This document shows positions 6,210 to 52,886 of a stretch of 64,000 nucleotides of DNA, in pieces. A model generated the notes under the pieces. That model was not told the origin of the DNA. It saw only the letters and a list, made by a program, of their open reading frames with translations, and made no database searches. This DNA comes from Tribonema minus (lineage: Eukaryota > Sar > Xanthophyceae > Tribonematales > Tribonemataceae), in assembly GCA_017506865.1 (NCBI GenBank), contig JAFCMP010000535.1, positions 248,001-312,000 of the forward strand, in the 5' to 3' direction. Position 1 is the stretch's first letter; the number at the start of each line of letters is the position of its first letter. The position numbers were made by a program, and so were the translations under genes.

Positions 6210-6930
6210 AAATCACGGACTGCCAGTGGATGACATTCAGCACATGACTCCACTCTGTCATGGCTGCACTGCTTTCTTGCAAAATGACATGCAGCGCTTG
6301 AGCTGAAAGAATGCACTTATGATCTTGTATTTATAGCAGCCCCAAGGTGGGCTTGATGCGTTGGATAAGATTGCAAAAAACTAAAATCGGACGGGCCCTT
6401 AGAGCCCTGCGTTGCAGGCTTGTACTAGACTCATGGGGGGCAGACACAGCGGCACCCAGTCTGAGCCACACCTATCGTAGCCGATGTCTCCATCTCTTGA
6501 GCGAGAACGCCGGAAGACCGCGGTTATGCCTCTAGTATACATTTGGGCCAGAGGCGCCCGGTCCTCGATTCCTTGCCTAAGCACGCCGCTGACGTGCCTG
6601 GCCGAGGTTCTCTTTCTTGCGTGTTCAAGCAAACGATCTACAGTGTGCCCTGATGCTATCCGTATCCCCATGTTCCAATATCCCCTGCTGCTGCCCAAAG
6701 CCGTATCCTCACCACACGCGACTCCGCAGCTCCTGCTCACAGCCAGCATCTCCCATCCCCTTGCTGCCTGATGCACCCTCGCCACCATCAGCGCCACCGC
6801 GAGCGCTGCCGCACCTCTCGGTGCGAACGAGCAGAGAAAGAATGCACAGGCAAAAACATGCACTCAGTTGATGAACAAAAAAAGTGTGTGCGTACCAACC
6901 CCCACAACGTTGTGTCAAAAGGAAAAAGAA
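6210..6930. other. Intergenic stretch without a recognised gene
   Basis: Short open frames on both strands have no conserved motif. Nothing can be supported between the repeat at 6209 and the tRNA gene. Confidence 0.4.
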
Positions 6931-7023
6931 TCTCCTGGCCCGGACTCGAACCGGGGACCGAACGATATCTGACAGGTTGTGTCCCATTACAGTCGTTCGC
7001 GCTGCCAACTGCGCCACCAAGAG
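6931..7023 (-). tRNA. tRNA-Tyr (GUA) with a 20-nt intron
   Basis: The full cloverleaf can be folded by eye. Acceptor CTCTTGG pairs with CCAGGAG (one G-U), with discriminator A. The D-arm is GCGC-AGTTGGCA-GCGC, the anticodon stem AACGA/TCGTT, and the T-arm CCCGG-TTCGAGT-CCGGG. The loop reads CTGTAA up to position 37, so the anticodon is GUA (minus strand, 6990-6988). A 20-nt intron follows position 37, the canonical place, as in nearly all eukaryotic nuclear tRNA-Tyr genes. The gene sits at the outer edge of an inverted duplication whose other copy, at 10289, has lost the T-arm and acceptor 3' strand. Confidence 0.95.
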
Positions 7024-7505
7024 AAGTCATAACTGGTGGCACAATTGGTGTTCACTTGCCACCTAGTTGGTGACTGTGTGCAGGTTCTCTCACATCCAGT
7101 ACTTGCACGCTGCCACATCGCAGCAGGGTCCGCTGGGACACACACCGCAGTGCCGCTTTAGCAGGTACAGGATACACCCCACCATGAGAGTCTACAGGCG
7201 AGGCGACTCGAAATGATGGCTCTGCCTTCGAACAGGGCAAGTCAGCAAGGGGGTGCATGGTGGTTTTCCTGGCAAACAGCGCTGTGGCATGTGAGGCACA
7301 CAAGTTGTGTCGCGTCACCGCAGCCTTCAACGCATGTAGCCTCAGGCACTCAGTGTCTCAGACTCCATGCATCGAGGATTGACCGCAGCGCTACGTGCAC
7401 GCCCTAGCAGACAACATGTGGCGGACGCATCATGTGCAACACACCACGATAGAAGGCAACGCGCAGCCATGGTGCAGAATGTGACAGCAGAGGCGTAGCG
7501 CAATA
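6970..7505. repeat. Left arm of a long inverted duplication
   Basis: The sequence from inside the tRNA gene to about 7505 reappears inverted at about 9795-10345. Long near-identical stretches include 'cttgctgacttgccct' and 'ggaaaaccaccatgcacccc' read on the right arm. Small indels and substitutions separate the arms, so the duplication is not recent. The spacer is about 2.3 kb. Confidence 0.85.
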
Positions 7506-9794
7506 CGGAGAAGCACAGTTGAAAATGTGGTCACGGTGCGCCTGCTGCAGGAAGCGTGAGCTGCACGCCTTCAAGGCAGGGGATCTACACTCCAACAACG
7601 CGCAGCAGAAACTACAGCGCTGCATCGTGTGTCTGCCCACGCCGGCCATTCGCGCGCGCTTTAGCACCATGCCCTATGGGTTGAGCAACAGCGGCATGCC
7701 ACGGGCAGTGGACGCCATGGGCCTCACGCCCAACACAACCTGCGGAGAACATGAGCCTGCAGACGGCCAAGGCGGACCTGGTGGACGGCGTCGGCTTGCG
7801 GCGCATCAGTTTCAGAAATGTAGGCAGGGCAAGGCGGGGGAGTGGGCATTGGAGTAGAGCGTGCGTTGTATTCATTTGTGTGTGCGTGTGTGAGGCATGC
7901 CATCAACGCACGCAAGCCGGCACACCCTAGCCGGCGGCCAGCTCTGCAATGGTCTCTTCATCTGTGGCCTTGCGCGGCCGCTTGTTGCCGCGCCGCACTA
8001 GCACGCTCCAGCTGTTGTGGACGCCAGACTGCCAACGTGTGCGCCAGGTCGGCGGCCGCTCTCATTTGCACCGCCACCGTCTGCTGCGGCGCCGCAGCAG
8101 CTGCAGCGTGGCACCGCACGTCGCACACCGCACAGCGGCCGTCCGCCAGTGGCTCTTCGCAGCGCCCGCGAAGAACCTCAATGTCACTCATTTCTTATCT
8201 GTCAGGCACAGGGCCACACATTTGATCGATGCACGTGTAGCACGTGGCGCGCTCGCTGAGAAAGTGAAGGGCTGCACAGCGCGCATGGCTCCGCGCTGGG
8301 CGTCGGGCTTGGCGGGTGCGGCAGCTCTGCACATGCGGCCTAGGACTGTATGATAGCCCAGCACCGCGTGTCCATGACAAGGTGTGCAGCGTGCGCATGC
8401 GCCAGTCCGCATGCCACTTCCTTTGTGGCGCGCCGTCCTCGCCACCACGAGGGCGCCGCCGCAGCGCGTGCAACGATCATGCGGCGCGTGCTCCGTGTTG
8501 CAGGTGCCATTGCCATATCTGGTACATGTTTCCTCTGATCAAACGTTGTAACAACGGGTCAGGCAGCGCACAACAATGCGACAATCATAATCTAATACTG
8601 CAGTGCAGGGCGATTACAACGCGAATCTTCCCAAGTTGATATTCAGTGCAGGGCAAAATCAACCACCATGAAGGCGACACTCCCAAGTTGGTGTTGAAGT
8701 ACAGGATGGAACCGCGGCGGTGATAACTGTAAAGTTACACCTGGAGATCTGTGAAATTGCATAATCCAACTGGCAAGATCTGATTACAAATCACAGTGGA
8801 CATATACGAGACTGTTCAACCAAACCCCGCAGATTGCAATGACCCAGTTTGAAATCAAAGAATGACGTCGATCTCTAATAAACTGGATCAAGACGCCGCA
8901 TGTAGACGGCCTGCTTGAATAGCTCACTGCCGAAGTCCTTGGCGCTGCGCAGGTCAGGCCGGAGCATCTTCTGGCGGAAAGCGGTGGCTGCGGATTTGGA
9001 CTCATGATGCAGTAAATTCTTGAGAAAAGTGAGTGTTCTGCTGGCGCTGCTTCGCCACCTTCTACTGAGCGCGGAGCTCGCGCGGCGCCGGCGCCACCGA
9101 TGCCTACGCCGGCGTGGGCCCTCATCTACTTCTGGGGGCACGTCTGTGTCAGCAGCATCTGTGTGAGCGCGCATGTATTTGCTTAGCTGGCGTGACATGC
9201 CGCAGGTGCGCGCGCACGCCCGTCTTCATCATATTCAGGGGGCCGCCGCGCTGCAAGGCCCGGGCGAGGTCGGCGCCATGAAGAGGCTCTTGGGCCCAGG
9301 CGCTACAAACATGGACTTGTAGTGAGCTGGCCGTGAGAGGGAATGGTCGCTGCGGGTGATGATGATGGCGCGTAGCCCGGAAGTGCCTGCGCCCTGCGTG
9401 ATCACGACAACAAAGCGAAAGAGGCAAGGAAGCAGCGCAGCAGCTGCCGCAGGGCGTCGCGCCAGCGCTGCGCAGGCATTGAGAATGTAGCGTACATCGA
9501 CATCGCAGCTGCCGCTGCCACCGAGCGCGCGCAGCTGGCGTTCGCTGAGCTCAGCATGGGCAGTCAGCTGCTGGCCCTGGTTTCGTCTTGATGTGGGCTC
9601 GCACAACGCTGTTGGTAGGACGCGCAGGCCTTTGGGTACCAGAATATTCACATTGTTTCATTGGCAAGATCGATGCCCAGTGTCGTACATGTACCGTAAA
9701 TACATGCACATCTGTTGAGCAAGCTGGAATTCCTTCGGCTGCAGCAGGCTGCTGAGGGTGGCCTTTTCTTAGTGTTTGAAATCAGCGTGTGGGA
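7506..9794. other. Spacer of the inverted duplication, with degenerate minus-strand open frames
   Basis: No intact gene is recognised. On the minus strand, overlapping frames at 9651-9235, 9427-9149 and 9198-8875 read protein-like and appear to be pieces of one decayed coding sequence; recognisable bits are CDVDVRYILNACAALARR, GLRAIIITRSDHSLSRPAHY and FGSELFKQAVYMRRLDPVY. Further on, a frame around 8191-7958 contains EPLADGRCAVCDVRCH, a possible Cys-pair metal site. Together with the long inverted arms this could be a dead DNA transposon of the long-terminal-inverted-repeat kind, but no catalytic motif is visible. Confidence 0.35.
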
Positions 9795-11136: not shown

Positions 11137-14100
11137 CAGCAGCAGCAGTGTATGCGACAATGATGACAGTCGAGACTACTGCGGCGAAAGCCATCCTCTC
11201 GAGAGCGGCGTCGGCGCGGGCACCTTGCCGGATCACATCAGCGTGCCGTCACCAGGGTCTGTGAGCTTCACGCGCACGCAGCAGTGCGGTTCTGCACCCC
11301 CCACAAGCACGCCAGGCGGCACAAGCTCTTTGACGGCACTGATCAGCAGTCTCAGCAAGCGACCGCCGGAAGCCCCACGGCTGGTTAGAGGCGGCAGCAG
11401 ATGTAAAAGAAAATCGAATGACCATCCTAGTCCGGGCTCGGCGCCAGCGGTCACCGGTCATGATGCCCAAGGAGACCACAGCGATGCTGCTACAACTTGT
11501 GCAGCGACTCCAAGCCCAAGGCGCGGCACGGCAGGCACAGGCTTCAAGACGCTGGGCGGAAGCGGCCACGACGACGGAGACGAGCGCTGCTGCGACAATC
11601 AGGCCGCCGCCGTGCACCCGCCCTTGCCTCTGCAGTTCAATCTGAGGCAGTGGAAGGAATACGCGGCCGCGCGGCACGCGGCCAACGGGCAGTTCAGGCG
11701 CAGCGCGCTGGGGTGGGACATCATGCAGGACATGGCGGAGAAGATCAGGACGGCGGAGGTGAGAGCAGATTTTTGTAGGTGTCGGCATGCGTGCTGCTGT
11801 GCGCCCGGGTGTTGTCGATACAACGCACTTGCGGTACCTGTACGAGTGCCCGGCTGTTGTCATTACAGTGCGTCTGGGTACCTGTGCGACTGTACGACTG
11901 TACAAGTGTATGAGTGCGTCGTACGGGTACCCAGATACGCACACGTGGGCGCACACTACGCACGGACGCGTCGGAGCGGCCAATCACTGAGGTCTGCTGC
12001 TTGCCCCTGCGTGAAGCAGCAAATATGTGAATTTCATGCTGCCCAGTCTCTTCGGACACCACTGCAGTAGCTGCCAGAGCGTGTGTGGTCATAGATTCGT
12101 TCCTTGCAGTTTCAGAGGGTGCGCATGTGAGGCGCGTGTGGTGGATGACACTGCAATAGCAACAGAATCCGCAACTTGCGGTGCCACAATTGCCACGTCG
12201 TCGCACAGCGTGCAGATCGCGTCCGACTGTGCCGCACATGCGTACGTGCTGACGGTCTGCCGCCGCTGAGTACTCGGACGCGTAACAAATATGTGGTCAC
12301 AACGCGCGCCCCCGGCTGCTGCGCGGGCGGCCAGACGGCGCGCGCCGCACGACCGCGCCTCAAAAAGCGGCAGGCTCTAAATTCAAACCGAAAGCAGCGC
12401 GGACCTGTCAGATCCCACCACGCAACGCCATCCCTTCAGAACGCGCTTGAATTTCCACAACAGATGCCATCCTCTTCAGAATGCGCTTTCCTCACACGCG
12501 CGACACGCCGCCGCGCTCGCGCCGCCGCGACACGCGCGCAGGTCGCGGGCCTGCACGCGCTGCTCGAGGAGCGCGGCCGGCGCCTGCCCTGCGCGACGCG
12601 GACGCCGCTCTTTCAAAGCGCGCGTTCCTCAGACACCCCCTCAAACCATCCTTCTCTCATTACGCACTTTGCTCACACGCGCGTGAATCCTTGCTGGCGC
12701 TGCCGCAACACACGGACAGGTTGCCGGCCTGCACGCGCTGCTTGAGGAGCGCGACCGCCGCCTGCGCGACGCGGCCGCCGCGCTGGCCGCGGAGCGCGGC
12801 GCCGCGTCGGACCTGCGGCGCCGCGTGGTGACGCTGCAGGCGCACGCGGGCGCGCTGGAGGAGGCGGCGCGGCGCGCGCAGCGCGACGCCGCGGCGGGGC
12901 GCGCGCGCGGCAGGTGAGGGGGTGGGGGCACGATGCTATGATGAGAGTTGACTCATCACTTTGTCAATATCAGGGTGCGGGTCGCTAGAGGGGGGGGGGG
13001 GGGGGGGCAGGCGCGGCGTGCGCAGCGCGACGCCGCGGCGGGGCGCGTGCGTGGCAGGTGAGCGCATCCTGAGCAATGCTGCGCGTAGATCGCACACGTG
13101 CGTGCGCGACGGTGCGCCTGTCTCTGGGACCATGTGCTTGGGGCGCGCCGCCAAAGTGTGGCGCCGCGGGGCGACGCTGCGAGCGCACGCGGGGGCGCTG
13201 TAGGAGGCGGCGCGGCGCGCGTGGCGCGACGCCGCGGCTGGGCACGCGCGCGGCAGGTGCAGGGGGGAGGGGGGGCTGGGGGGGGGCCTCTCCTGAGCAC
13301 TGCTGCACATAGATGGCGCGTGCGCGGGACAGCGCGCTCGTCTTTGCGGCCGTGTGCTCAGAGCACGCAGGTGAGAGAGAGAGATAGCGCACTTTCTGGG
13401 GCTGCTTTGCGCGGCAGGTGAGAGAGAGATATAGCGCACTGTCTGGGGCTGCTTTGTCCGCGGAGTCCGGCGGCGCGGGGGGGAGGCGCTCGCAGCGCGG
13501 TGTGCGCTGGCAGTGCGAGGCTCGCCTCTTTTAGGCTTCTGCTTACGCGGAGCGCGTCACAACCCCTGTCGTCAGACACACACACCTTCAAGTTTTTGAT
13601 TTCATATCTTCAACTTTCTAGATGTGGCTGCGCGCTGCACCCTCCATGCAATCTGTTGCCATCCTCAAACTCCTGCAGCAATCTGGAGCGGCGGCTAGCA
13701 GGGCGTGGCTCACCTCGTGCAGGCCTCTCCTTGCGCAGAGCGCGCCGCAGCCGCTGCCATTAGATGCACATCTTCCACTTTCCTGAACGTGGCTGTGCGC
13801 TGCGTCCTCCACACACAACTTCAGGTAACATATCATATCTCCAACTTTGTTGAATGTGGCTGATGGTTGTGTCCTGCATGCATTCGCCACCCCCACATCC
13901 TTGCAGCAATCTGGAGCGGCGGCTTGCAGCAGGGCCTGGGGGCCTCAAGGGCTTTCTTCACGGCCCCGACCCGCCTTCGGAGAGGGACCCGCCCAGCCCC
14001 CGGACGCCCTCTTGGGGGGGGGGCGCGGGGGGGGGGTCTCCCGCAGGCAGCATGATGGTGAGCGACATTGCGGAGTTTGGTATACAAGAATTGAGATGAG

Positions 14101-17100
14101 ATGAGTGATCCAGGTGCTTGTGTCATCAGATCTTGTGGCATGGGCAGTCTCTAAAAGGCGCATTGCCCGTAACGCCGGCATTGGGGTTGACATTAGGGTT
14201 ATGGCGAGGCCCCTGGGCCTCAGGCCTCGCGTTGCAGGATCGTGGCTGAACACGCGCTGCATTTAGAAGAAGCGCGCATGGACACGAAACAGCCGGTGCG
14301 CAGCTTCCGTCAGTCGTGGCCACTGGCTTTCGCGCGCGTGCACGCCTGCTGTCTGAAGGCACGCGCACGCTGCCACCAGAGGTGCACAAGGCGTTTTATA
14401 CGGCACCCACTCTACCATTGCCGTTGTAGCAGTATGACCTGATTCCCCACCCCTTGCACCTTGCCTGTGGGTCTGAATAGGATGAGAGCTTCAAGTGCGG
14501 GGGGGATGTCAGGGGGCGCGACAGGAAGGGGAGCGGCGCCGGCAAGGGGGTGCCTGCGGGGGGCATGAGCGCGGCGGATGCGCGGAAGTTTCTGGAAAAC
14601 GCTGAGCTGGAGAGGGGCGAGGAGCGGCGGCGGCACGCGCGCGAGCTGACGCTGAGGTGGGCGCTGCCTATTAGAGTACATTGTGAATCCACAGTTCCCA
14701 CGTGTACTTCCACAGCATGCCCTGTGCTGTGGTATGATTGCAAGACTCTGCAAATGGTTTTGCAGAGTACGTCGTTCGGTTGTGTGTTTGGCTTCAAGTA
14801 CTTGAAGAAGTATGTGGGTGACCGTATTGGCAGCTGTCAAACACGCGCTTGCGGCGCCTGTTGAGCACTGCTTCACTGACCTTTTGCGTGGGCCCAGTAC
14901 AGGCTCACATGGCATGCATGCTCGTCATCCTCACACGAGTGCACTGTAGCACGTTACACAAGTACATTGTAATATATAGGGATGCGAATGCGCGCAGCGG
15001 GGGGCCAACGACCTGTTGGCAGCTGCAGGGAGAGGCCGCCATCAGTAAATACGGCATACCAATCATCCTCTCTTCTTCACGCTACTGCAAGCCTTCTGCT
15101 ATCCCTACGCAACTAGAACACACTGACACCGCGGGGGTGTGCTAGACTCCCCCCCACCCAGCACCACCCTCCCTCGGCATTTGTCGGCAGCGATGAGAAG
15201 GCGAAACTTCTGCATCAACCCTTACGAGAAGACCTTGTAACCCCCCCTACCCCCCTCCCCTTTGACCCCACGCTTGTGGAGAAGGGAGAACACCGGCGTG
15301 CAGTTTTCTCGCGCATGAGCTGTATCCCTTCTGTGCCTCTGCGCTCCGTGCACGCCTCGGCAGCGATGACAAAGCAGAGCGCCTGTTTTTGCTCGTACTA
15401 GCGCATGTGCTGCCTCCCCCCCCTACCCCCTGCGCCTCTGCCCCCCGTGCATTCATCGACAGCGACAAAAATGCACAACGGCAGCGCTCACCTTACGAAC
15501 GCGCAAGCTGTGTCCCCCCCCCCTACGCTCCTGCCCCCGTGCTTCGTCGGCAGCGACGATAAGGCGGAGTGCGTGAATTGCTCCTGCTACATGGCAGCGT
15601 TGATGATATATGCAGCTCATATATGTGCCGCGAGCCCCCTGATCCCACTGCGCACCTACGCCCTGTGTGCACGCACCATCAGCGATACGACGGCGGAACG
15701 TCTGCAATCATTCCACGAGCGCGCACGCTGCATACCCCTCTGCTCCTGCTGGCGCGTGTGCTCGGCATTGTGCCGCCACCCCCCCCTGCCCCCCTGCGCA
15801 CCTGCGCCCCGTGTGCACACAATGTCTGCATTCATTTCACTGAGAGCACGCTGCGCGCCCCCTCTGTTCTGCCCGCCTGCATTTCATCGGCAGCGACAAG
15901 AAGGCGAAGCATCTGCGTCACTCGTGTGCGCAGACTGCCTGCATCTAATTCACTAGCGCGCACGCTGCACGCTCTCCCCTCTTGTGCCCGCCCCGTGCGC
16001 CGGAAGCGATGAGAAGGCAGAGCGCCTGCGCTGCTAATGCTAGCGCATGTGCTGCGAGCGCATGGGCTGCGAGCGCCCCCCCCGTCCCCCTGCGCGCCCC
16101 CCCCCCGCGTGCATTCAGTGACAGCGATGAGAAGACAGAACGTCTGCATTCAATTTCATCAGCACACACTCTGCCCCCCCCCCCCCCCCCCCCCCCTGCG
16201 CACTCATTGGCAGCGACGAGAAGGCGGAGCGCCTGCGCGGCGACGTCAAGCGGCTGCAGGGCGAGCGCGCCGGCCTGCAGGCGGCGCTAGAGGCGCAGGC
16301 GGCGTTCTGGGCGGCCAAGGTGGCGGCGGCGGAGGACGTGGCGCGGCGCGCGCGGGAGGGCGCTGCCGTCGCTGAGGTACGCTCACGTTATATTGCTAGA
16401 CTTAGGATCTAGGGTCAGGCTAGCTTACGGTCAGTGGGGTCAGGGTCGAGGTTTGGGCTGACCCTAGTCCGATGCTCGGTAGGGTAAGGCGATGCGGCGA
16501 TGCGGCGCGGCGTGCGCGGGAGGGCTGTCGCTGAAGAACTATTGCTACAATAGGGGTAGGGTTGAAAGTAGGGTTACGTCGAAGTGTAGGGTGAGGTTGT
16601 CGCCACCTAGAGGGTCCGATGCTCAGTAGGGCAGGGCGCGGCGGCGCAGAGAGCGCGGCGTGGCACGTACGCCAGGGCGCTGCCGCGGCTGAGGTACGCG
16701 TGACGGGGGTTGGGGTGAGGGTCAAGGGAGAGGATGAGCCTGCCGCTGAGCTGCAGTGGCCGGGGGGCTTGGGGTTAGGGCAAGGACAATAAAGTTAATA
16801 GGGTCAGAGGTTGGGTTGAGCAATGCGATCCGGCGTGGCGGGCGTCGGAGAGCGCTGCCGCTGCTGAGGTACGGTCGCCCCCATGCCTGACACGTAACGC
16901 ATGGTGGCTCCATCCCACCTGCGTCAATGAGCCCTGTGTTCACGTCGTTTACCTCGCGCACGATGGAGGCGGTGAACACCGAAACGGCGAGATGCTGGGG
17001 TGCAACAGTGTGAGGTGACGCGGCGGCGGGAGGAAGATGCGGGAGGGGCGCGCGGAAGCGCTCAGCTGCAGCAGCTGCTGCCTACATTTCATCGTCAAAT

Positions 17101-19840
17101 CGGCATTAGCTGCTACCGCCACTTCCAAGGTGCCCGCTTGGCGGCGTCAAGCGCCATCAATCGCCACGCAGCCGCTGCGAACGCTTAAAAAATGACTGCA
17201 GGCTTCCAGACATGACATTGCTCAATGCTTGTTGCGCGCGCTGCAGGCGGCGCTGGCGCAGCAGCAGCAGCGCGCTGCGGCGGATGCGCCGCCGGCCACG
17301 GCGGGCCAGGGCGAGCAGGAGCGGCGGCTGATGCTGGCCACGGAGGAGGGGCTGCGCCACCAGATCGCGCAGCTGCAGGAGCTGCTTGTGCAGGTGAGCA
17401 GTGTCAGCAGCATCGTGAATCTGACCTTGGCGCCATAACATATCGTAATCATGTATACCTCATATATGTGTGTGCGGTGCTGAGGGCTACGCGCTCTCAA
17501 AAGCAGGCGAGCCACGTAATCGAGCATGCTTACCACGGGAGAGCGCTTCGCCATCAGATTGCGCAGCTGCAGGAGCTGCTTGTGCAGGTGCGCATTGTCA
17601 GCAGCGTTGCTGGTTTGACCTTGTTGCCGTGTCAAATTACTACTACTTACACTTCATATTAGTGTACGGCGCCAAGGGCTGCGCGCTGCAACCAGGCAGT
17701 CCACGTGATCGTGTATGCTCGAGAAGGCCTGCGCCATCAGATCGTGCAGCTGCAGGAGCTGCTTGTGCAGGTGAGCGTCGCCGGCAGCATTGCTAGCTTG
17801 ACCCTGTCACCGCATGATGGCATAGTAATGTATACATGAATGCGTGCGGCACCAATGGCTGCGCGCTACGACCAGGCACGTCGCGCAATGTGTATGCTGG
17901 CCATGCAAAAGGGCCTGCACATTGCGCGGCCGCAGCAGGTGCTTGTGCATGTGGGCTTCGCCAGCAGCATGTTGCTGGACGTTCTCGCCGTGTCACGCCA
18001 TGCGTATCGTGCACACGTGGCATGTGCCAGCCAGGCAGGCCATCGAACCGTACATGCTGGCCGCGGTGGAGGGCCTGTGCCACCAGATCGCGTAGCCGAA
18101 CACCAATCGCAGGAAATTGCATCACACAGATGCAGGTGCTACAACAACAAAATGACGGGTCATGTGCGGCCCACTTTCACATCGATGGCAGTGCTGTCAT
18201 CTTCGCATATTTGTCGGGCTGCAAGCCGTGCGCCGCACGCGTCGAGCCTCAGCGGTGCAACAGCAGCACCCCTCGGCGCTCGTTGCAAATGCTTCTCGAA
18301 GCAGCGATCCTGATGAGTCCTTTTCCAACTCTGTCTCAACGCTCTTCAGGCAGTCGCCGCGGCGTACCCGACCATTGCCCTGCCGCCAGCGGTCCTGCAG
18401 GCGGCGGCGGGCATCCGCGGCGCGCAGTGCGCGCCGCCGCCGCGCGCCGCCGCCGCCGCAGCAGCGTCTCCACAAGGTGCTGGCGCTGCTGCTGCCTTCG
18501 CGCAGGACGCGTCGCGGCGGCGCAGCACCAAAGCGCTGCCCGCCGCAACGCTCGCCGCGCTGGCCGCCGCGCCGCGGCCCGTGCGGCAGCACGCGCAGCT
18601 GGCGGCGGTGGCGGCGGCGCGCGCGCAGCGGCGGCCGCGGCGGCAGCGCTCGCCGGACCCTTCGGCGGCGGCGGCGGCGGCAGCGATGGGCGGCGGCGGC
18701 AGCGGCAGCAGCAGCGGCGCGGGCAACGAGCAGCTGCAGCCAGACGCGCAGCTGCACTCGGCGACAGATGGCGGCGGCAGCGCGGCGCAGCGAGCAGCGG
18801 CGGGCCACGAGAGCGGTGTCGTCACTGGGCCAAAAGCGCAGCAGTGGTAAGCGCTGCTGCTCAAGTGGCCATGTTGCTAGGAACGGCGCTTGAGGTGGCT
18901 TGCGATGTCGCAGTGCCTCGTGACGTGAAGGCGGTTAGCATTATGGCGCATGTGCTGCTTTCCTGTAGCCGCAATTTCGACGCCAGAGCCTTGACATTAT
19001 TTGTGTACGACATGCCTCATTGTCAATGTCGCTGACATGTGCATATGGTACGTCCTACTTTGCGGCATTGCGCCCAAGCTCAAGCGCTCAAGCAGATCAC
19101 AAGAGACGCCCCGCGCAACTGGCAGACTCCTACGCATGTGCAGCACAAACCCATACAGCCGCACTCCGCCGTCTTGCAGGCAGCGCAAACCGTCATTCGA
19201 CCCGCCTCCGTGGCCAGGAGCGGCGCAGCGGCCGCCTGCATCAGCAGCCGAAGGCACCGCAACTCCCGGTTGTCACGGCACTGGCGCGCCGCCGCCGACG
19301 CCAAAGACGCTGCAGTCCATCGCCTCCGAGCCCGATCTCTTCGCCACGCTGCTGGTGCCGCCGCCGCCGGCGTCGCCGCCACCGGCAGCAGCGGCGGCGG
19401 CAGCGGCGGCGGCAGGGCAGCAGCGCTCGCCGGCCGCATCAGCAGCGGCAGCGCAGCAGCCGCCGCCGCCGACAGCGGCGCAGCTGCGCGCGCGCCGCCC
19501 AAGCCCGCCGCCGCCGTGGCCGGAGGAGCCCACGCGCGCGGCGCCGCGGTCACCACGAGACAGCAGCGATGAGAGCGACGGCTCGGACAGCGCCGCCGCC
19601 GACGCCGCGCCGCTGCTCGCGTTCGCGGCCATGGTCAGGGCGAGCGTGTCCGGTGGCGGCGGCAGCAGCACCGGCGGCAGCGGCGGCGGCAGCGGCGGCG
19701 GGGCCTGCAGCAACGCTCAGCAGGTGGTGCAGCAGCAGCACCGGCGGTCGGCGGCGTGGGCGGAGGACCGCGCGCGCGAGGTGGCCGCGGCGGTAACGGC
19801 GGTTTCGCGCAGCCGCCGGTCCATGTCCGACGCGCGATGA
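11045..19840 (+). CDS. Nine-exon gene for a ~900-aa coiled-coil and intrinsically disordered protein, function unknown
   Basis: Nine exons join without a frame break: 11045-11758, 12720-12913, 13907-14057, 14481-14656, 16214-16376, 17247-17393, 18350-18846 and 19180-19840 are clear. A possible small extra exon lies near 17005-17130, so the count is eight or nine. Every donor is GT, every acceptor AG, and phases match at each junction. The N-terminus carries a run of about 18 Ser encoded by AGC repeats. FNLRQWKEYAAARHAANGQF opens a helical region, followed by coiled-coil exons (LHALLEERDRRLRDAAAALA, then DEKAERLRGDVKRLQGERAG, then EGLRHQIAQLQELLVQ). The last two exons are Ala/Pro/Gly/Ser-rich, with PKTLQSIASEPDLFATLLVP and an acidic RDSSDESDGSD patch. 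I recognise no family; a structural or scaffold role is only a guess from the coiled coil. The introns hold tandem copies of exon ends, listed separately. Confidence 0.7.
11096..11149 (+). repeat. (AGC)n coding microsatellite
   Basis: A nearly pure AGC/CAG trinucleotide run inside exon 1 encodes the polyserine tract in the frame used. In the other frames it would give poly-Ala or poly-Gln, which creates shadow reading frames on both strands. Confidence 0.9.
12541..12745 (+). repeat. Duplicated acceptor junction before exon 2
   Basis: The acceptor and first ~11 codons of exon 2 occur twice. A decayed copy starts at 12541 (GTCGCGGGCCTGCACGCGCT...) and the copy in use starts at 12720 (GTTGCCGGCCTGCACGCGCT...). 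Both follow a CAG. Only the second leads into a full exon with a matching donor. Confidence 0.75.
12880..13421 (+). repeat. Tandem copies of the exon 2 donor junction
   Basis: The last codons of exon 2 plus its donor (GCGCGCGGCAG|GTGAG) recur after the true site at 12913, at about 13008-13057, 13150-13256, 13352-13370 and 13405-13417, with growing differences. The second copy has an in-frame stop, so these are not alternative full exons. An 18-base run of G sits at about 12991-13008. Confidence 0.7.
13676..13925 (+). repeat. Duplicated acceptor junction before exon 3
   Basis: CTGCAG|CAATCTGGAGCGGCGGCT occurs at about 13675 and again, in use, at 13907. The preceding bases, including 'tgtggctg', 'tgcgctgc' and 'tcctcca', are also repeated between 13620 and 13900, so a unit of roughly 100-230 bp has been duplicated. 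Confidence 0.7.
15181..16240 (+). repeat. Array of about nine acceptor junctions before exon 5
   Basis: Units contain a C-rich tract, then '...cggCAG|CGAYGAKAAGGCGGAGCGYCTGC', then 'gcgcacgctg', and repeat. Junction copies are at about 15191, 15364, 15463, 15554, 15682, 15894, 16005 and 16124. The last, at 16214, opens the real 163-nt exon. Spacing is 90-210 bp. Each decayed unit keeps roughly the first nine codons of the exon, then breaks back into intron sequence. C tracts reach about 19 bases just before the true acceptor. Confidence 0.85.
16360..16872 (+). repeat. Tandem copies of the exon 5 donor junction
   Basis: The end of exon 5 (GCGCGCGGGAGGGCGCTGCC...GCTGAG|GTAC) is repeated in decayed form at about 16495-16535, 16640-16695 and 16815-16870. 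Each copy is separated by ~150-170 bp of 'agggttgggg'-type sequence rich in imperfect TAGGG motifs. Confidence 0.75.
17345..18095 (+). repeat. Array of five exon 7 donor junctions
   Basis: The exon end encoding RHQIAQLQELLVQ plus its GTGAGC donor is in use at 17393. It recurs at about 17545-17587, 17725-17770, 17900-17950 and 18055-18092, period about 150-195 bp. Copies two and three still encode the same residues and keep a GT donor; the later two have drifted. Flanks such as 'gcgtgtgcggtgc..gggctgcgcgct' repeat with the unit. Confidence 0.85.
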
Positions 19841-26700: not shown

Positions 26701-29700
26701 CGCAGGTTGCTGGCAATGCGGATGTTGATCGGTGACGTGTCGCCTAGCTATTGTGCAGAACGCTTGCCGGAGTGCCAGTATGCACCACCTCATGCCACAC
26801 GCTCAAATGAAAATAATGAACAGCAAAACAGCACTGTATACGGGCGCGGCAGCAAAGCTGCAGCACTGCAAAGTGTCAACAACGAGGTGCTCACAGCACA
26901 GAGTACAGGTAGTTAAGCTGCAGCAAGATCGTATTGCTCAGGACCAGAGCTGAGAGCAATGCTGACCATCAACTGAATGGTTCGTTGGTGCAGCAACGGG
27001 GCACGCTCAAAGCGCTCTTATGAGGGGCAGCCACACAGCATTACGGTAGCACTGTCAGCTGCCTTAATGATGAAGGTACCAAACGAGAGCAGGCGACAAA
27101 ATGAGAAAGCCATCAACGCAGCATGCAGCCGCTACGCAAGCGAGTGTGCCTCACGCAAGGGACGCACAAGCTAGGGCTAGGGTCAGACGACAGAACGTAA
27201 TCGTCTTCGCTAAGGCAATATCAGGCCCCAAGTTTCAGAGCAGGGCTGTCCATCAACTGACAGCACGTAACGCGGCAGCACGATACGTCCACGGAGTACT
27301 CTTCAAAGGAGCAATGAGCAACCATGCATTGCTGCGGCAGCCAACGATGCAAACGCAGGCATGTCGTTCAAGCTGTGAGAGCTCATTCTTACCGTCATTG
27401 ACAGCGCCGTGTCGGCCGTGGAGAGCATCTCCTGCGCGCGCTTGCGGTGCTCCCACGTGCCGCCCTCGATGACGCCCCGGTTGCGTTCCGCCATTTCGAC
27501 GGTGTCCTTGAACTCTGCATCGCGCGGCGCACACAGCAGGACGGATGAGGTGGCCAAGTGTGTACGCTCGCAACGCAAGAGCTCACTTCCACGTACGCTG
27601 CAGAAGCAGCAGTGGGTGCATGCGTGATGGCGGCGCGCTGACAGGACATGAAAATACACTTGAATTTGCCCCTCGAAGTCTGCATTGTTTTGCGCGTGTT
27701 CACCGCATAGAGGGTGGGAACACAGCTTTGAAGTGTCTGCCCATTATGGGCGGCGATGACGCGAGAGCTCACTGTCCGATCTGGTCATTGTGAGCAGCAT
27801 GGCAGTGCACAGTGACCATGCAGTGCTGCTGAGATGCACTCGTTGTGTGCCGCCATCGCAAAGGCGCAATTGCGGTGTGTAACAGTGTGGAATGAGGACA
27901 TGACAAACATGAACTCATGGATGGATGGTGCATGAGCTTGCGGCGTACCCACACCACTTGCATCCAGAGCCATTGCACGGCAGAGAGCAGCAAGTCATCA
28001 TAACAGTGGTCTCACAAGCTGTGCTCAATGATGCCCCCCATTGTCTTTCATCCCCTGCCCCTTCCCCCCTGATGATCTGACGTCAAACTGTCATCAGACA
28101 AGTTGAGAGACTTGCCAACGCATTGCAACCAAATCCTATGGTCAATACCCAACCAGCATGTTTGAAACACCAAATGCCAGGAGCAGGCTGCAAGAAATGC
28201 AGCTTGAGCTTGTACCCCCTGCCTGATGCAGCAGCAAACTGTTCAGCTCTGCCTGCAATCACGATGTCCACGTGTACCGCGATATAGTGACATCGAAATG
28301 CGAAGTGGACGAGCAGCAACACCGGTGTAGTGCACGAATTATTCTAATCGACTCATGAATTACGCACCTAAGTCATATCACTATTCAGGTTAAATTCATA
28401 AAGGGGTAAACGTGCGCTGACCTTCGTCCGCCCTCGCAGCAAGCTCAGCATCAATGTTGAGCCTTGTCGCAATGGTACTACTATACACATTATCACAATC
28501 AATTGTGAGTGGCAAAGTGATCTTCACTACCGCTTGCACATAGCTCTCACCTTCATCTGCCCTCGCTGCAAGCTCGGCGTACTCGTTTTGGATTCTCATC
28601 GATTCACGCATAGCGCAAGTAGATTGAATTCATGAACGATCGCATGCCTCTCACCTTCAACCGCCCTCGCCGCAGTACGCTTGGTGTACTCCTTGAGCCT
28701 CTCGCCACCACAACGGCGCACAATGATGACATCACTCTATGCATGGCAAAAGTAAACCGAATCATGATGCATTCATGGATGACGTGTTCCTCCACGCGCT
28801 CTCGCCTTCATCCGCCGTGGCCGCGAGCTCGGCGTTAAATTTTCATCGATTCACGCATGGAGCAAGTGAATTCATGAATCCTTGTGCACGCACTCACCTT
28901 CATCCGCCCGCGCAGCGCGCTCGGCGTACTCCTTGAGCCTCTTGACACCCCAACTGGTAAACAAACTACCATTCAACACATGGATGGCAAAGCTATATAC
29001 GACAAACTGTCGTCAACATATGAACGGCGCAGCGATATGTATATCCACAAACCCTCACACATGCTCTCACCTTCATCCACCCGCGCCGCGAGCTCTGCGT
29101 ACTCCTCGCCACTACAACGGCGCGCAATATTGACACCAATCTCTGCATGGCCGAATTCAATCAAATCACGATGAATTCATAGAATTCATGAATGTAATTG
29201 AATTTGCAATGTGATTGAATTTGCAAATTCTGACATGCGCTCTCACCTTCATCCGCCCTCGCCGCAAGCTCGGCGTACTCCTTGAGCCTCTCGCCGTGCA
29301 GGTCCTGGACGGCGGCGAGCTTCGCCTCCGCACCCGCCCCCGGAGCGCCGCCCATCATCTGTACAAAGAGCGCCATTGCGACAGCAGGATTCAGTTGAAA
29401 TTGCGAAGCTGTTTATGTGTGCCGCAGAAGCGCAGTGCCTCCGCACCCCCCCCCCCAGCGCCGCCCATCATCTACAGAGCAGCTGCGGTGCGACAGCAGT
29501 GCCCAATTCAGCTGGAATTGACGTCAGATGCACCTGCGTCCAACTGCCAGCATGCGCGCAGCCAGCAGCCCACCAAGGCGCAGCGCGCGCTCAGTGGGTG
29601 AAGTGGCACTAGGAGCAGCAGGCCAGCTGCAGGCCCCTAGCACCACTTGGCGGACAGGCATGAAATGACATCGCTATCTAGGCAGAGCATGCGGCCTATT

Positions 29701-32700
29701 GGCGTACGTACACTGAGAGCATAGACAGGTGGGGCTTCGCTAGCATGTCATTGAGGCGCATATGCAGTCCTCTCGAAGCGTTTGTGCGCGAGGTCATGCG
29801 TAGGTAGGTATCTCTGTGCGCCGCGATCGCTGCGGTCACCAGCGCGGTGGCCGATGCGAGGGACATGCCAAGTTACACAAACGCACGCAGCAGGAGACCT
29901 CGATCACGACACACGCGAGGTGCGCTGAACGCACTCACTTGTCTCCACGAAGGTCCTCTGCAGCACAGGTAGGTATCTCTGTGCGCCGCGATCGCTGCGG
30001 TCACCAGCGCGGTGGCCGATGCGAGGGACATGCCAAGTTACACAAACGCACGCGGCAGGAGACCTCGATCACGACACACGCGAGGTGCGCTGAACGCACT
30101 CACTTGTCTCCACGAAGGTCCTCTGCAGCACAGTCAAGTCAGGTCCACAACACACATCACCATGCAGTGACCTGCCACCGTAGGTACGCACCCATAGTGA
30201 CGCTCCACACACAAAAGGCCACTTCAACTTCAACCTCAATAGGACATGCCACACGCTGTCACCCATTGCCATGAAGCCTCCCGTAGCGCCCCACACAGCG
30301 GTTGACCACGTCAAACTTCAACTTCAACATGACTATTCAGCGGAGCGTCACCTGTCGCCGCGCGGCCTCGCGGATGCGCGCCTCTAGCCGCTGCAGCTCC
30401 TGCTGTTCGCGCAGCTGCTTGTCTGAGCGGCGAGCGCGGTCCGCACATGCGGGGAAACAAACACTTGAAGTCCTCAGCACAAATGTTGAAGTTCTAGGCA
30501 CGGCGCAGGCCAGACGAACGTGACATGGCAAGCTCTGGGGGCCTTGCTTGAATGATGACATGAAGGCATGGAACAGGGTCGACCCCCCCCCCCCCCTTTC
30601 ACCCCTAACACCCACGTACAACATACACATGCCAACGGCTGATGATGTAAAACATGGCGCGCCTGCAGCAAACGTAGTGCGTATGCTTCTGAGACTGCCT
30701 GTGTGAGGTTCACCCCAGCGGCACAGCAGCGTGCACAGCGCTGGTGCACAGCGAGCGGGGCTGTAAGTGCGCTTCTGACGCGCAGCGCACAGACGTCATC
30801 GCGCTGCCGGGCAGGTAGGTATATTGACATGTACTGGCGTGTATGCTAATGTAACGATGGCCGTTTGTGACAGGGTCATGAGTCAAGGCCGTTGCCTGCG
30901 ACCAACTGTGCGCGAGCCAGCAGCAGTGAGCTGGGCGCCTTAAGCCAAGATGCATACGCTCTGTCATCAAACCGCATGCTCTGTCATTGAGCCGCCAGGT
31001 GTGTCAGAAACACAGCAGGTGTGTGATGGCACCTCGCCACTTTTTGGTGTACTGCAGACTAGGCATGCGCAAATCACTATTGATGATGTTTTGATGAGAC
31101 TCCTACAACTGCCACACGAGATATGGCCAGCTGACTGTTGCATGATGCAAACGTCATCAGCATGCAGCATCGCTCAGGAAACAGGCACAACTCCTGTGTT
31201 TGGTCTACATGATTCAGGTGCAGCAGAGCAGCTGCATGAAAGGCTGCAGCGTCTGCCAGTGACTCCATGGGAGGCAATGTTATGCAGTGTGTGCTTGGAC
31301 AGCATTGCATGCGAGGGGACTGTAGTGTGGCTTGAGCAGCACACCACCTGAGCGTTGCTGCGGAAGGACTAGCCTCGGGCAGGGCCCAGACAAGTGCTAC
31401 TATGCTCACAAAGGCGGAGCTGAACTGCGATGACCATCAAGACGGATTCATGTGCAGTTCATGTGCACCTACAACACCAGTGCATATACACTGTGTACAC
31501 CAGGAGCAAAGCTGAATGACGAAGCGCCAAGGCCTGCTGACCAGGTGCGACGTACCACATGCTGAGTTCTCAGGCAGTTGCACAAAGGCGCAAGCCATTT
31601 ACAACCCCATTAGCGCAGCATCATAGGGAGAGTCACAAGCACCAGCAGCAGAACCGCGCCCCGCCGCCGCGCCCTCACAGAATGAGAATCTTACCAAATG
31701 TACATTTACACCGGCTCAACAGGCACAAAGGCCAAGCCCAAGGAGCCCACTTGACTAGTACCACTACTGCTCCGCTACAGCAGCAGCATCGGGCGGTGCC
31801 GCGGAGAATCTGCTCTTGAACCTCCTAGCACCGTGCCCACCTGCTGCCGCGTCCATCGTCTCCGGCAGCGCCTTTCCGCCGCCGCCGCCCGTCGGCGCCG
31901 CCACCACCGCTGCCACCGCCGCCTCCACTGCCGGCGGCACCGGCGCGGGCGCTGCTGCCGCTGCGTCCCCCGCCTTTGCGCCCCACCGTGACCGTCGCGC
32001 TCGCCGCTCCGACTGCGCCGCCGCCGCCGCCGCATCGCCGCCCGGCGCTGCTGCCGGCGCCGGCGCCGGCGCCGCCGCGCGCTGCGCGTCCGCCTCTGCC
32101 TCCATGATGACCGCCGTCGCCGCCGCCGCCGTCTCGGCGTGGCGGCGCTGCTCGGCGGCGGAGGCGCGCGCGGCGTGGCGCTCCGCCGCCGCCTTGGCGC
32201 GCTCGCTGCGCTGCGCCTCCAGCTCCGCCTCGAGGATGACCTGCGTCGCCGCCGCCGCCGCCTCCGCGGAGCGCCGCTGCGCCTCCTCGAGCGCCGCCTG
32301 CGCCGCCGCCGCCACTGCGCGGGCGCGCGGGGGACAGAGGCGCAGCGAACGGTGAGGCCGGCACCACAGCGAGATCGCCCGTGCGCCAGACAACGAGAGT
32401 GCAGCAAATACGCAATGACGACAGGCCTCAGTGGCAGGCACACGCACACGCGACAGCAGCGTCGCATCAGAAGAAACGGCAGGGCCGCCGGCGACGCGCT
32501 CACCGGCGGCCTCCGCCTCGCGCCGCATGCGCTCCGCGGCCGCCTCCGCCGCCGTCGGCGCCGCCACCGCCTCCGCGGCGCCGCTCGTCACGCGCGCGAC
32601 GTGGCTGCGCGCGCGCGCCGTCGCGAGGGCGTCGCGGTACAGGCGCCCCTCCGGCGTCGCGCCCGCGGCGTCGAGCGCGAAGCGCACGCGCGCGTCGCCC

Positions 32701-47013: not shown

Positions 47014-49239
47014 CACTCGGGTTTACATTACCGGTGGTGGCTCTGGCATCTGGTGCCGCCACCGCTGCCGCTTCCACATCTGGTCCTGCCTCCGCTGAAG
47101 CCATTGACACCATGTCAACTGCAGCCGCCACAGCCACCCGTGCTGCATGAGCGGAATTTGCATCAGCAAGCGGCACACCTCGACTTGTCATCTGGCTCTC
47201 TCATCAGTCGCGCAGTGCTATAGTGCCCCTCCCTCCCCCCCACGAGTCGTTAAGCTCCCTGCGTCGACAAAGGTGCACATCAGCCAAACTCAGGAACCTC
47301 GAAATACTGAGATGGCCTTGCTGGCTGTTGCACTGGCGGCCGCTAGGCAAAAAGACTGCTGAGCCCGAAGAAGCACTTCACATGAATCCTAGGAATTTGC
47401 CTGCTGTTACCACCATCACAGCAGAACATTGGAGGTATAAGGGGGTACGGTATGGGTTGAAGTGGGCGTGGGGGTATGGGTTTGAGTGTGAGTAGTCGTG
47501 AAGGCAGAGTTAAGCGACAGGCTGGTGCAGTGCTGAGCGCACGCAGCTGTGATAAGTGAATGCAACTGCTTACTACTCTTACTAATCGGCTGCAAGTCTT
47601 TGCTTATTGCTGCTGTTTACAATGATGTATGCATTGGTGATAACCAAGGGCACTTTGCTGCGATGTGCTCAAGCCTGCCATTTCAAGTTCATCACAATGA
47701 GCCTACTATTATTGCAATGCATGTTGTGCCATAATGGTGCCTTAGGGCAATGCATGTGTCTCACACACCGCGATGCATGTTTCACTTAGCAAAGAGCACA
47801 AGTTCTGCACGAGTGCAGACCGGGTTTCACATCACTTCAGGCACACATGTACCTCACGGAATCACAGCACAGGACTGCATTCTCTGCAAGTTGATCAATC
47901 ATTATGGCACTCAGCAGAGGACACAGCATGGTTATTGTGACCTACACATGTCATACATGATGCAGAAAAGGGAGAAAAGACATGAATACTTCGTTGTCAG
48001 TAGACGACATGAGTTGACAACATGCGCACCGACTATTCGATCATGTCGAAACAGCATCCATTTTCAATCGGCATATTGTCACATGGGGCCCCTCAGCGCA
48101 CAGGAGGCCCACTGGCTAGCAAGGCAACCACCCACCACCGGATTGCGTCCAAGAGTGATACCTGTTCAAGTGCAAACAGGGCAGTGACGCTCCACTTGTC
48201 ACTGCTCAGCAAAGGGGATGCGCAACGCTGCCACAAACCCTCCCCTGCTCTTAGCAAATCACGACGCACGAGCGAGATGCACAGGGGACGCCCAAACTAG
48301 ACATCATTTTGAAGGCCAGAATGTATCATGTTGTGGCTGCTGGCATGCGAAAGAGAGACCGACAAGCATGGGCCGAGAGCATATCTAGTGTGCACCCACA
48401 TCAGCTAGCTGCCTCTACCAAGCTTTGCAATGCGTTGCTGCTACTACCTAGGCATGTGTGTGGGCACAGGCGTGAGTCACGCGCACGCTGCCAGAACACA
48501 GAACAGCGCGTGCGCATGCGCGAATGGTGAGCCCTCCTCCAAAAGCGTGCGGGCGCAAGTAGCGCGCGCTCGCCATGCATGAGAGCGCAGGCACGGGGAA
48601 CTCGCCGCCAAGCGAGTGTAGACGCGCGCCGCAACCGCAGCGCTGCCCGCCACGTGAGAGCATAGGTGCGCGCCACGACTGCAGCTGGTCTGCCGAGGGC
48701 GCAGGCGTGCACCGCGACCGCAGCGCCGCCAACAGCTGGCGTACACGGCGACTGCGGCATCGCCAAAAAGGCATGGATGCGCAGCGCGAGCGTGGCACCG
48801 CTTTCACCACACAGCGCGCTCCGCAACCGCGAGCATGCGGCGTGCTCCGCAACTGTAGAATCACCGCCGGCAGCAGTGATACGTAGTGCAGTGGTGTCGC
48901 CGTGTGGAGCAACGTCCCCAGACTCCAAGTGCGGCAGCATGCATGCGCGCCGCTGATGGCTGCGTGCGCAGAGACGCGCACGCGTGCAGCCGCATGCGCA
49001 GCGACGCGCGCTTGCGCCACGGCGAAACTCCAAGGGCCATGGTGAGCGCTGAGCGTGCGCGCCGTCTCCGCTTATGAACCTGGAGGCGAGCAGCTTTGAT
49101 CCACTGGCAGACAGCGCACAATTCAGCTCATGTTAAGGCTGGGTTCTGACATGGCTGTTCAAATTTGCCTCGAGGATACTCAGGCTGGTTCACCTCAATG
49201 ATCCGCTGTCGCAGTGCCACCATCATGATGCGCAGCACT
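47014..49239. other. Region without a supported gene; GC-rich degenerate repeat at 48.48-49.05 kb
   Basis: A 145-codon plus-strand frame at 47750-48187 has no motif or introns and is not called. From about 48480 to 49050 the sequence turns CpG-rich with a loose ~60-bp period ('gcgcaggc.cg.gacc.gcgccgcaaccgcagcgc'). This opens long frames on both strands that are probably artefacts of the repeat. Confidence 0.4.
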
Positions 49240-49668
49240 GCAGCAGCACAAGCAATTGCACTCTGAGAGTGCATGCATGGCAAGGGCCGAATCGCTGTGA
49301 TGGCCAACCTCCGTAAAAGCTGGGATAGCACACTCATCAGAACCGGCGCCTACATGCCTCGCACACGCCACTGCCCTCTGGCCCATTTTACCCCTCACTG
49401 CGCCCCATTGGTACTGTCACTTTCTGCTCTGTTTTTGCAGTGTTGACCATTGTTCAAAGCTGTCCGCGCTCCCTCGAACACCCACACTTACTCAAGCATA
49501 TTCAGCTTTACCTTTTACTGCACACATGCAGAGAGCTGCATTCACTTCAAGTGCAGTGTGCAAGTGTAAGCGGGTGACACTCCTGCCTGAGCATCATCGA
49601 CCACCTAAGTGCTGGGAGAGAGCTCTCCATCACACACAACACAGAGCAGTAAAAGAAGCAGCCCAGCA

Positions 49669-50413
49669 ATGTCAAGCAACAACGGAAGCGATGTCAACGA
49701 CCTCAGCAGCAACTACGGCGAAGACGCGCCCGGCAGCGACCACGACAGCGCAGATGATGTGTTTGACCTGCTGCAAGAGCAACGAGAACAAGCCATCATG
49801 ATCCTAGAGGTCCTTCACCAGCATCTGAGCTCGGAGGGTAAGAGATCGCCCTCAATCCACCTTGCCAGCGCGCTGGACGATCAAAGCGCAGCTGACGTCT
49901 TCACTGCCGGCATTTGAGACGCTTTTGAAGCTTTCATAGGATCTTTTAATGTGAACTAGAATGGAACAATGGTTTCTGTGCCGATGGCGACGACCAGGTC
50001 GGATCGCGGACTGATTTCATCATCCGCCTCGTCCCTGCTCCCTACAGCCGTGACTTCTGACGCTCTCCGTGTCCTCTCTTTCCTGCACAGACGGACAGCA
50101 GCTCGTCGCTCAAGCCATTATGGCGATTTCGGCGGCAGCTGACAATCTGCCCCGCTCCCTCGGTTGGCTGCACCTTGAGGACGATCACCAGGGCGCGGTG
50201 ACGCTGGCGGCGGCTCGAAGAGCAGCAGCAAACCTGCGGAACGCTGTCAACAACCTTCTTCCAGGCTTCGCCCACCTGGACATCAATCAGCTCCAAGTTC
50301 CCTCGGGGTCAGACTCTGATGGCGAGGCCGCCAGCGACGCCAGCCCCCCGGACTTGCTGCCAGCTGCGCCTGACGAGGACGAGGTGGTTCCTGCGCTGCA
50401 TCTGCACAATTGA
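49669..50413 (+). CDS. Small acidic protein, family of unknown function, copy A
   Basis: Exon 1 (49669-49837, ending GAGG before GTAAGA) and exon 2 (50091-50413, after CTGCACAG) join in phase to a 163-residue protein. It starts MSSNNGSDVNDLSSNYGEDA, an acidic Ser/Asp-rich stretch, then FDLLQEQREQAIMILEVLHQ, a helix; exon 2 begins DGQQLVAQAIMAISAAADNL and continues to HQGAVTLAAARRAAANLRNA, then an acidic tail SDSDGEAASDASPPDLLP and DEDEVVPALHLHN. There is no signal peptide or membrane segment. I do not know the family. Conservation of both exons and the splice sites in copy B, with mostly conservative changes, argues that it is a real protein. Copy A is the most complete of the four relatives in the window. 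Confidence 0.7.
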
Positions 50414-52728: not shown

Positions 52729-52886
52729 CCTCCGGGCCGAGGTGCTGGCCAATGACCTTGAAGATGGCCTGTTCTTGTTGCTGCTGCACGAGCTCGAACG
52801 CCGCACCTATGCTCGCTGGCGGGCGCGTCTTCGCCGCTGTTGCTGCTGGAGTTGTTGATGACGCTTCCATTGCTGCTGCCTGACAT
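52729..52886 (-). pseudogene. Small acidic protein family, broken copy C
   Basis: The first exon is recognisable from ATG at 52886: MSGSSNGSVINNSSSNSGED, then in a different frame AFELVQQQQEQAIFKVIGQH. So the exon carries a frame change between its halves and the donor is altered to GTGATA. No second exon follows on the minus strand. Upstream (53200-53440, minus strand) is a diverged copy of the promoter region of copies A and B, split from the exon by the ACGCGT array and an AT-rich tract. Confidence 0.7.

Follow-up and report, generated by a model that had tools for sequence, protein, structure and literature searches.

Many introns of Tribonema minus hold, in the loci sampled here, runs of decayed copies of their own splice junctions, and introns therefore seem to grow by duplicating them. 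The copies lie in the intron that adjoins the exon concerned, in the same orientation and at regular spacing; they decay in the manner of non-coding sequence, and within one copied unit the exon part is far better preserved than the intron part. The scheme that we favour, to which we give about an even chance of being right, is that tandem duplication spans the junction, that the copies are silent for want of a partner splice site, and that their exon part is refreshed by gene conversion. Below, the window is the whole stretch of 64,000 nt that was analysed, and coordinates refer to it unless a contig or locus is named; a slash within a motif marks the splice site.

Junction copies in the window

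A sequence-only reading of the window had described an array of nine copies, each joining the end of an intron, an AG and the start of an exon, of which only the last leads into the full exon. This description holds: a 36-nt core (intron end, AG and first exon bases) occurs nine times between 15177 and 16236, with starts at 15177, 15350, 15449, 15540, 15669, 15880, 15993, 16111 and 16200 and hence spacings of 173, 99, 91, 129, 211, 113, 118 and 89 nt. Two extra partial units lie in the 173-nt and 211-nt gaps, the former judged by eye from the alignment and the latter also recovered in repeat families D1 and D10. The features are as follows.

14481–14656, + strand: exon upstream of the array (exon 4 of the sequence-only reading), from the HMM gene model; donor at 14657, score 5.8
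15177–15212, + strand: acceptor-junction copy 1 (AG/CGATGAGAAG...)
15270–15349 (limits approximate), + strand: partial unit in the 173-nt spacing, from the alignment by eye
15350–15385, + strand: acceptor-junction copy 2
15449–15484, + strand: acceptor-junction copy 3
15540–15575, + strand: acceptor-junction copy 4, with the best acceptor score among the 80 AGs of the intron
15669–15704, + strand: acceptor-junction copy 5
15776–15851, + strand: partial unit in the 211-nt spacing, from repeat families D1 and D10 and the alignment
15880–15915, + strand: acceptor-junction copy 6
15993–16028, + strand: acceptor-junction copy 7
16111–16146, + strand: acceptor-junction copy 8
16200–16236, + strand: last copy, which runs into the open exon; real acceptor, exon from 16214
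16214–16376, + strand: exon (SDEKAERLRGDVKRLQ...) of the gene model; donor GAG/GTACGC at 16377, score 6.1

That the copies might resemble one another no more than by chance, a doubt raised in the same reading, is answered by a search with a junction core of 27 nt (GCAG and 23 bases of the exon) in 15151–16205, the last copy being excluded. It gave 6 copies at a local score of at least 24 and 7 at a score of at least 20, against a maximum of one match in 200 first-order Markov shuffles (means 0.005 and 0.05, respectively). Tandem Repeats Finder did not report the nine-copy array, and gave within it only a 15-bp run at 16038–16076. Identity of the copies to the last one is 0.67–0.92 over the 24 bases from the junction and 0.43–0.60 from base 26 inward, and the unit thus reaches about 26 nt into the exon.

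The AG, said in the reading to be mostly kept, is present in all nine copies. By score the real acceptor comes eighth among the 80 AGs of the intron, and four of the eight decoys (15191, 15364, 15554 and 15894) stand above it. Only the last copy has an open exon and a strong donor; within 130 nt of six of the eight decoys no donor exceeds 3.5, and the other two have one donor each, at 3.6. Since the decoys are without a strong donor, it is the distal acceptor that would be used. The HMM gene model took two decoys as very short exons (15554–15568, 15 nt, and 15894–15923, 30 nt), and yielded no single open frame across the whole predicted gene. A Pfam search with the predicted protein pieces of this gene found no family; the product looks like a coiled-coil protein.

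Further copies, including donor-side ones, lie on either side of the array.

12467–12611, + strand: acceptor-side copy of exon 12720–12913, 77% over 147 nt with 12646–12784
13000–13062, + strand: donor-side copy of exon 12720–12913, 90% over 63 nt with 12857–12918
16638–16699, + strand: donor-junction copy of exon 16214–16376 (GCTGAG/gtacgc at 16694), 81% over 62 nt; donor score 6.1
16832–16876, + strand: second donor-junction copy of exon 16214–16376, 82% over 45 nt; donor score 5.4
17247–17393, + strand: next exon (...EGLRHQIAQLQELLVQ) of the gene model; donor GTGCAG/GTGAGC at 17394, score 7.6
17526–18096, + strand: four donor-junction copies of exon 17247–17393 (at about 17526, 17723, 17894 and 18054)

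The first three of these four copies have donor scores of 6.8, 7.6 and 3.7, and no donor was found in the last. With two donor-side copies of one exon and four of the next, the pattern extends beyond acceptors; donor-site arrays were absent from the earlier account.

Other repeats were observed in the sequences analysed. A 165-bp unit that begins AGGTAGGT is present as two tandem copies, 99% identical, at 29802–30133, within a predicted minus-strand gene whose translation includes what we take to be a G-patch-like stretch, and this duplication is very recent. A cluster of diverged direct repeats in the same gene (28414–29295, mostly 36–65 nt, 73–93%) is possibly another junction array. The predicted exons at 48591–50410 (+) and 50965–52870 (−), with similar predicted proteins (DSADDVFD...SGSDSDGEAASDASP...VVPAL), appear to be an inverted pair. 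An 80-bp satellite of 7.7 copies, with a longer period of 159 bp, occupies 58625–59239. In the stretch C201:600001–650000 (loci L027–L031), the predicted proteins consist of very many PTAEPTAKPT-type repeats.

Copies of exon edges across the sample

The survey covered 314 kb, made up of the 64-kb window, C445:300001–500000 and C201:600001–650000, or 0.2% of the genome (158 Mb). Exon borders were predicted by a small HMM gene finder, self-trained on this sample, in which the donor consensus came out near AG/GTGAG and the acceptor as GCAG; the GC content of the C445 stretch is 55.2%. Exons of at least 75 nt and with a score of at least 12 were kept, shorter or weaker ones being dropped, which left 170 anchors, 137 inter-exon regions and 274 edges. 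Blocks of 36 nt of exon were then compared with up to 1500 nt of the adjoining intron.

On the same strand, 43 of 137 exon starts (first 36 nt) recur in the upstream intron and 45 of 137 exon ends (last 36 nt) in the downstream one, as against 1/137 (acceptor) and 3/137 (donor) on the reverse strand and 20/1370 and 10/1370, respectively, when edge blocks were compared with other introns of the sample. After removal of low-complexity blocks and of targets shorter than 150 nt, the profile peaks at the edge and falls off into the exon, from 39/109 through 18/102 to 4/88 on the acceptor side and from 40/105 through 24/108 to 4/87 on the donor side, the last values being reached by a depth of 72–108 nt. 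Intron blocks had matches in 5–24% of cases. Controls gave 0–2%, against the values at the same-strand edges, with 0/109 and 1/105 on the reverse strand at the edge. The suggestion in the sequence-only reading that such arrays might be general among the introns of this genome is therefore borne out within the sample.

The copies lie on the side expected of duplication across the junction. For exons of at least 110 nt, exon starts are matched in the upstream intron in 32/72 cases and in the downstream intron in 0/72, and exon ends in the downstream intron in 33/75 and in the upstream intron in 2/75. Edges formed by the start codon had copies in 1/12 cases (reverse strand 0/12) and those formed by the stop codon in 2/17 (reverse strand 3/17), although these numbers are small. 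Direct repeat clusters straddle exon edges in 4 of 7 cases in one identity class (0.5 expected from uniform placement), in 19 of 26 at 93–97% (1.7 expected) and in 38 of 61 at 88–93% (4.4 expected), with 1, 7 and 5 clusters, in that order, omitted as mixed or exon-only.

In total, 81 of the 274 edges bear 182 copies (106 donor, 76 acceptor), one to seven apiece, and 61 of the 137 regions have at least one. Neighbouring copies are a median of 166 nt apart (interquartile range 129–198, n = 182). Regions with copies have a median length of 1353 nt, as compared with 459 nt for those without, and the arrays occupy 33,492 of the 187,592 nt of sampled introns. The splice signal is often kept, with AG before 63/76 acceptor copies and GT after 81/106 donor copies.

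The frequency of copies differs strongly among genes. MCM5, IleRS and LeuRS have them on 53 of 84 edges, whereas the remaining predicted genes have them on 28 of 190, namely 16/78 in the C445 stretch, 8/60 in the window and 4/52 in the C201 stretch, where predictions are partly repeats. The identity of MCM5, in which the repeat units are 138 nt long, was confirmed by alignment to solved structures; the other two are presumably IleRS and LeuRS, as named from their sequence. A LeuRS donor junction occurs about six times with a 160-bp period at 98% identity (L021 about 6500–7790; C445:446.5–447.8 kb). This array is young, and would be useful for comparing copy number between strains.

Elsewhere, Pfam matches to the chaperonin family on three other contigs have overlapping profile ranges, and each of the three stretches contains repeated acceptor or donor junctions, with flanks fairly well preserved in two of them (L034 and L035); because these loci were picked for the profile overlap, they are evidence of occurrence and not of frequency. 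The tubulin-family loci illustrate how strongly junction repeats differ from gene to gene: four of the six, including alpha-tubulin (L003), have no local direct repeats (L001–L004), and the other two (L005 and L006) have many. A single weak repeat pair was seen at one of the two light-harvesting loci and none at the other. One light-harvesting protein has its best match among fucoxanthin chlorophyll a/c proteins, which makes a chlorophyll-c alga likelier than the green alga that alpha-tubulin had suggested.

Exon part, intron part and coding status of the copies

The copied exon part is about 87% identical to its original and the adjoining intron part about 66%, random sequence giving 58%. On the exon side, identity is 0.82–0.90 over the first 30 nt; on the intron side it starts near 0.75 and drops to 0.65. 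With the comparison restricted to the three recognised genes (117 copies), the means are 0.87 and 0.66. In a single-base profile of copies with an exon identity of at least 0.88 (28 acceptor, 49 donor), the border of conservation is the splice site itself: the exon side stays mostly at 0.85–1.0, whereas acceptor copies are at 0.64 four bases into the intron and donor copies go from 0.94 to 0.35–0.55 by nine or ten bases into it.

In the simplest account, close to that of the sequence-only reading, splice junctions would be duplicated in tandem and then decay neutrally with no refreshing; the contrast would come from constraint on the real exon together with the detection of copies by their exon part. 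The comparison of the two parts used 177 of the 182 copies, those less than 90 nt from the real site being dropped. Pairs with an exon identity of 0.94–0.98 have a mean intron-part identity of 0.70 (n = 7 acceptors) or 0.66 (n = 29 donors), with 90th percentiles of 0.78–0.79, and the one donor pair at 0.98 or above has 0.75; when neutral duplication was simulated, with assumed rates of mutation and indels and with detection as for the real copies, this class gave 0.90 (10th percentile about 0.8). Full-unit young duplicates do exist, as in the LeuRS array (98% over 553 nt, offset 160) and at 29802–30133 (99%, offset 165). Moreover, full-unit alignments are about as frequent among coding-involving pairs as among noncoding ones at 75–85% (29/91 versus 12/32) and at 85–92% (4/56 versus 1/10); at 92% and above, the counts are 0/21 versus 3/4, although these numbers are small. 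Pairs sought by their intron part (34 found) have exon parts of 0.53–1.00, and the contrast thus depends on how pairs are found. On balance we regard plain duplication and decay as unlikely to be the whole explanation. What stands of the earlier proposal is that introns grow as segments spanning their splice sites are duplicated, which agrees with the adjacency of the copies, the length of the introns that carry them and their generality; decay alone is insufficient, given how much better the exon part of a unit is kept than its intron part.

Alternatively, only the edge of the exon might be copied into the neighbouring intron, without its flank, by template switching or by an event coupled to splicing or transcription. 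The enrichment at edges far over uniform placement would fit this, as would the scarcity of copies at gene ends and the 14 of 34 pairs with an exon identity of at least 0.94 in which no significant flank homology was found. In the other 20 of these 34, however, the intron flanks are diverged and yet homologous in register (about 5–10% expected), which indicates that the tandem units are old although their exon part has remained young, and the regular spacing of arrays such as that of MCM5 likewise argues against copying of the edge alone. We consider this, too, improbable.

It might also be proposed that the copies are functional, be it as alternative, recursive or decoy sites or as short exons, bound or used by the spliceosome and kept by selection. 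In copies with an exon identity of at least 0.88, splice scores are indeed near those of the real sites (6.4 versus 6.5 for donors, 4.7 versus 5.4 for acceptors), with an intronic background of 0.3; conservation ends at the splice site, and the gene model reads some copies as exons, both in the nine-copy array and in LeuRS (LKEKPQFREKFGLTDE). Against this, 35 of the 36 indels in copies break the frame. Changes confined to a single copy number 105/2052, 96/2086 and 161/2017 at the three codon positions (52 edges, 153 copies); of these, 140 are synonymous (108 expected), 217 replacement (244 expected) and 5 stop changes (10 expected). This test omits 64 sites changed in at least two copies (46 of them third positions) and 36 sites where the exon alone differs (24 third positions). 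With changes spread almost evenly over codon positions and synonymous ones modestly in excess, the copies look non-coding and close to neutral; some coding constraint, or older changes shared between copies, is possible.

The splice sites of the copies give a similar picture. Loss of GT follows the general divergence of the core, retention tracking the square of core identity, and the acceptor AG is kept slightly above the prediction from core identity in all four classes; there is thus little support for selection on these sites. When MCM5 is aligned with solved structures, one copy per repeated piece is aligned and the extras fall in insertions or unaligned stretches. A function for the copies is accordingly quite doubtful. 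Donor copies have an upstream acceptor in 17 of 63 cases, as compared with 487 of 1005 control GT sites (p = 0.001). For acceptor copies and nearby donors, p is about 0.03 if the window includes the copied exon core and 0.4–0.9 without it, and donor depletion beside acceptor copies is not robust.

Proposed mechanism and comparison with known systems

In the scheme of junction-spanning duplication with conversion, a local tandem duplication would extend from roughly 30–70 nt inside the exon, across the splice site, to about 100 nt inside the adjoining intron. The intron-side copy would join the intron because it is without the partner splice site needed for exon definition, and the spliceosome would keep to the junction joined to the whole exon; repeated rounds at acceptors and donors would give longer introns. 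Silence for want of a partner would fit the weakness of the donors near the decoys of the nine-copy array and the depletion of upstream acceptors at donor copies. The exon part of the copies would be rewritten again and again from the real exon by gene conversion, which would stop at the limit of the region constrained in the real junction and leave the intron part to drift. Such rewriting is favoured by the occurrence of old units with a young exon part, together with the little sign of selection on splice sites; it is possible that selection on the copies, or copying of the edge alone, could yield the same contrast. The data themselves establish the copies, their adjacency, orientation, spacing and non-coding decay, and the contrast between their two parts; we infer that gene conversion causes the difference between exon and intron parts, that exon definition is the reason why the copies are ignored, and that they are absent from mRNA. 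A bolder version, tentative and rather doubtful, takes the splice junction itself as the unit of duplication: some mechanism coupled to transcription or splicing would copy exon edges, splice sites included, into the adjoining intron over and over, so that introns would be partly built of past sites.

That the pattern is an artefact, of misplaced exon borders, repeats in coding sequence or duplication in the assembly, is very unlikely: the exons do come from a home-made HMM and some predicted genes, as in the C201 stretch, are doubtful, but the pattern is strongest in the genes recognisable by conserved protein sequence and is seen also in the Pfam-found chaperonin genes, and the differing spacers make assembly stutter improbable. 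New introns with border repeats are known to arise from a duplicated AGGT site or from the insertion of an introner; either origin is exceedingly improbable here, since the copies are junction pieces within introns that mostly keep their AG or GT and match the adjacent intron far more often than other introns.

Intron growth and the choice that the spliceosome makes among near-identical sites are long-standing problems, for which rare cases have usually had to serve. One genome here offers many natural experiments, in which real and decoy junctions are adjacent, have similar scores and exon context, and differ mainly in the presence or absence of a partner site. Exon definition, intron growth and the exchange of sequence from exon to intron become directly testable. 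There is a warning here for annotation as well: an automatic pipeline may call spurious short exons in such a genome, just as the HMM model did.

Among the matches listed in a limited search of titles and abstract openings, no report of genome-wide splice-junction arrays was seen. Introns can arise when exonic AG/GY proto-splice sites are duplicated in tandem (PMC2891723, PMC4974935); this is likewise a local tandem duplication, handled by the spliceosome, that turns new sequence into intron. The unit described here, by contrast, spans an existing junction; its copies stay in the intron, several per edge and at many edges, and mostly retain an intron-side signal, rather than bounding an intron whose two splice sites both come from a duplicated exonic motif. 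Introner elements (PMC9860276, PMC7789003) are similar in that they rewrite introns widely in algae and protists. They form families across many genes, whereas the copies here are exon edges that match the adjacent intron, and similar copies were not a feature of different genes' introns within the sample.

In tandem exon duplication, exon sequence is repeated in a neighbouring intron. Here it is an edge of about 30–70 nt with one splice site only, and not a whole exon with both, as the fading of the matches within the exon makes clear. Tandem splice sites (PMC2423196) are, like the junctions here, competing sites of similar strength. Those of the NAGNAG type lie a few bases apart. The sites described here have the median spacing of 166 nt given above, and carry exon sequence with them. 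There is a further likeness to intronic minisatellites and the concerted evolution of repeats, in which tandem units are possibly kept alike by exchange: the junction copies are a tandem repeat array, head to tail, in one orientation, regularly spaced and with flanks often in register, and what distinguishes them is that the part kept alike is the part held in common with a functional exon edge.
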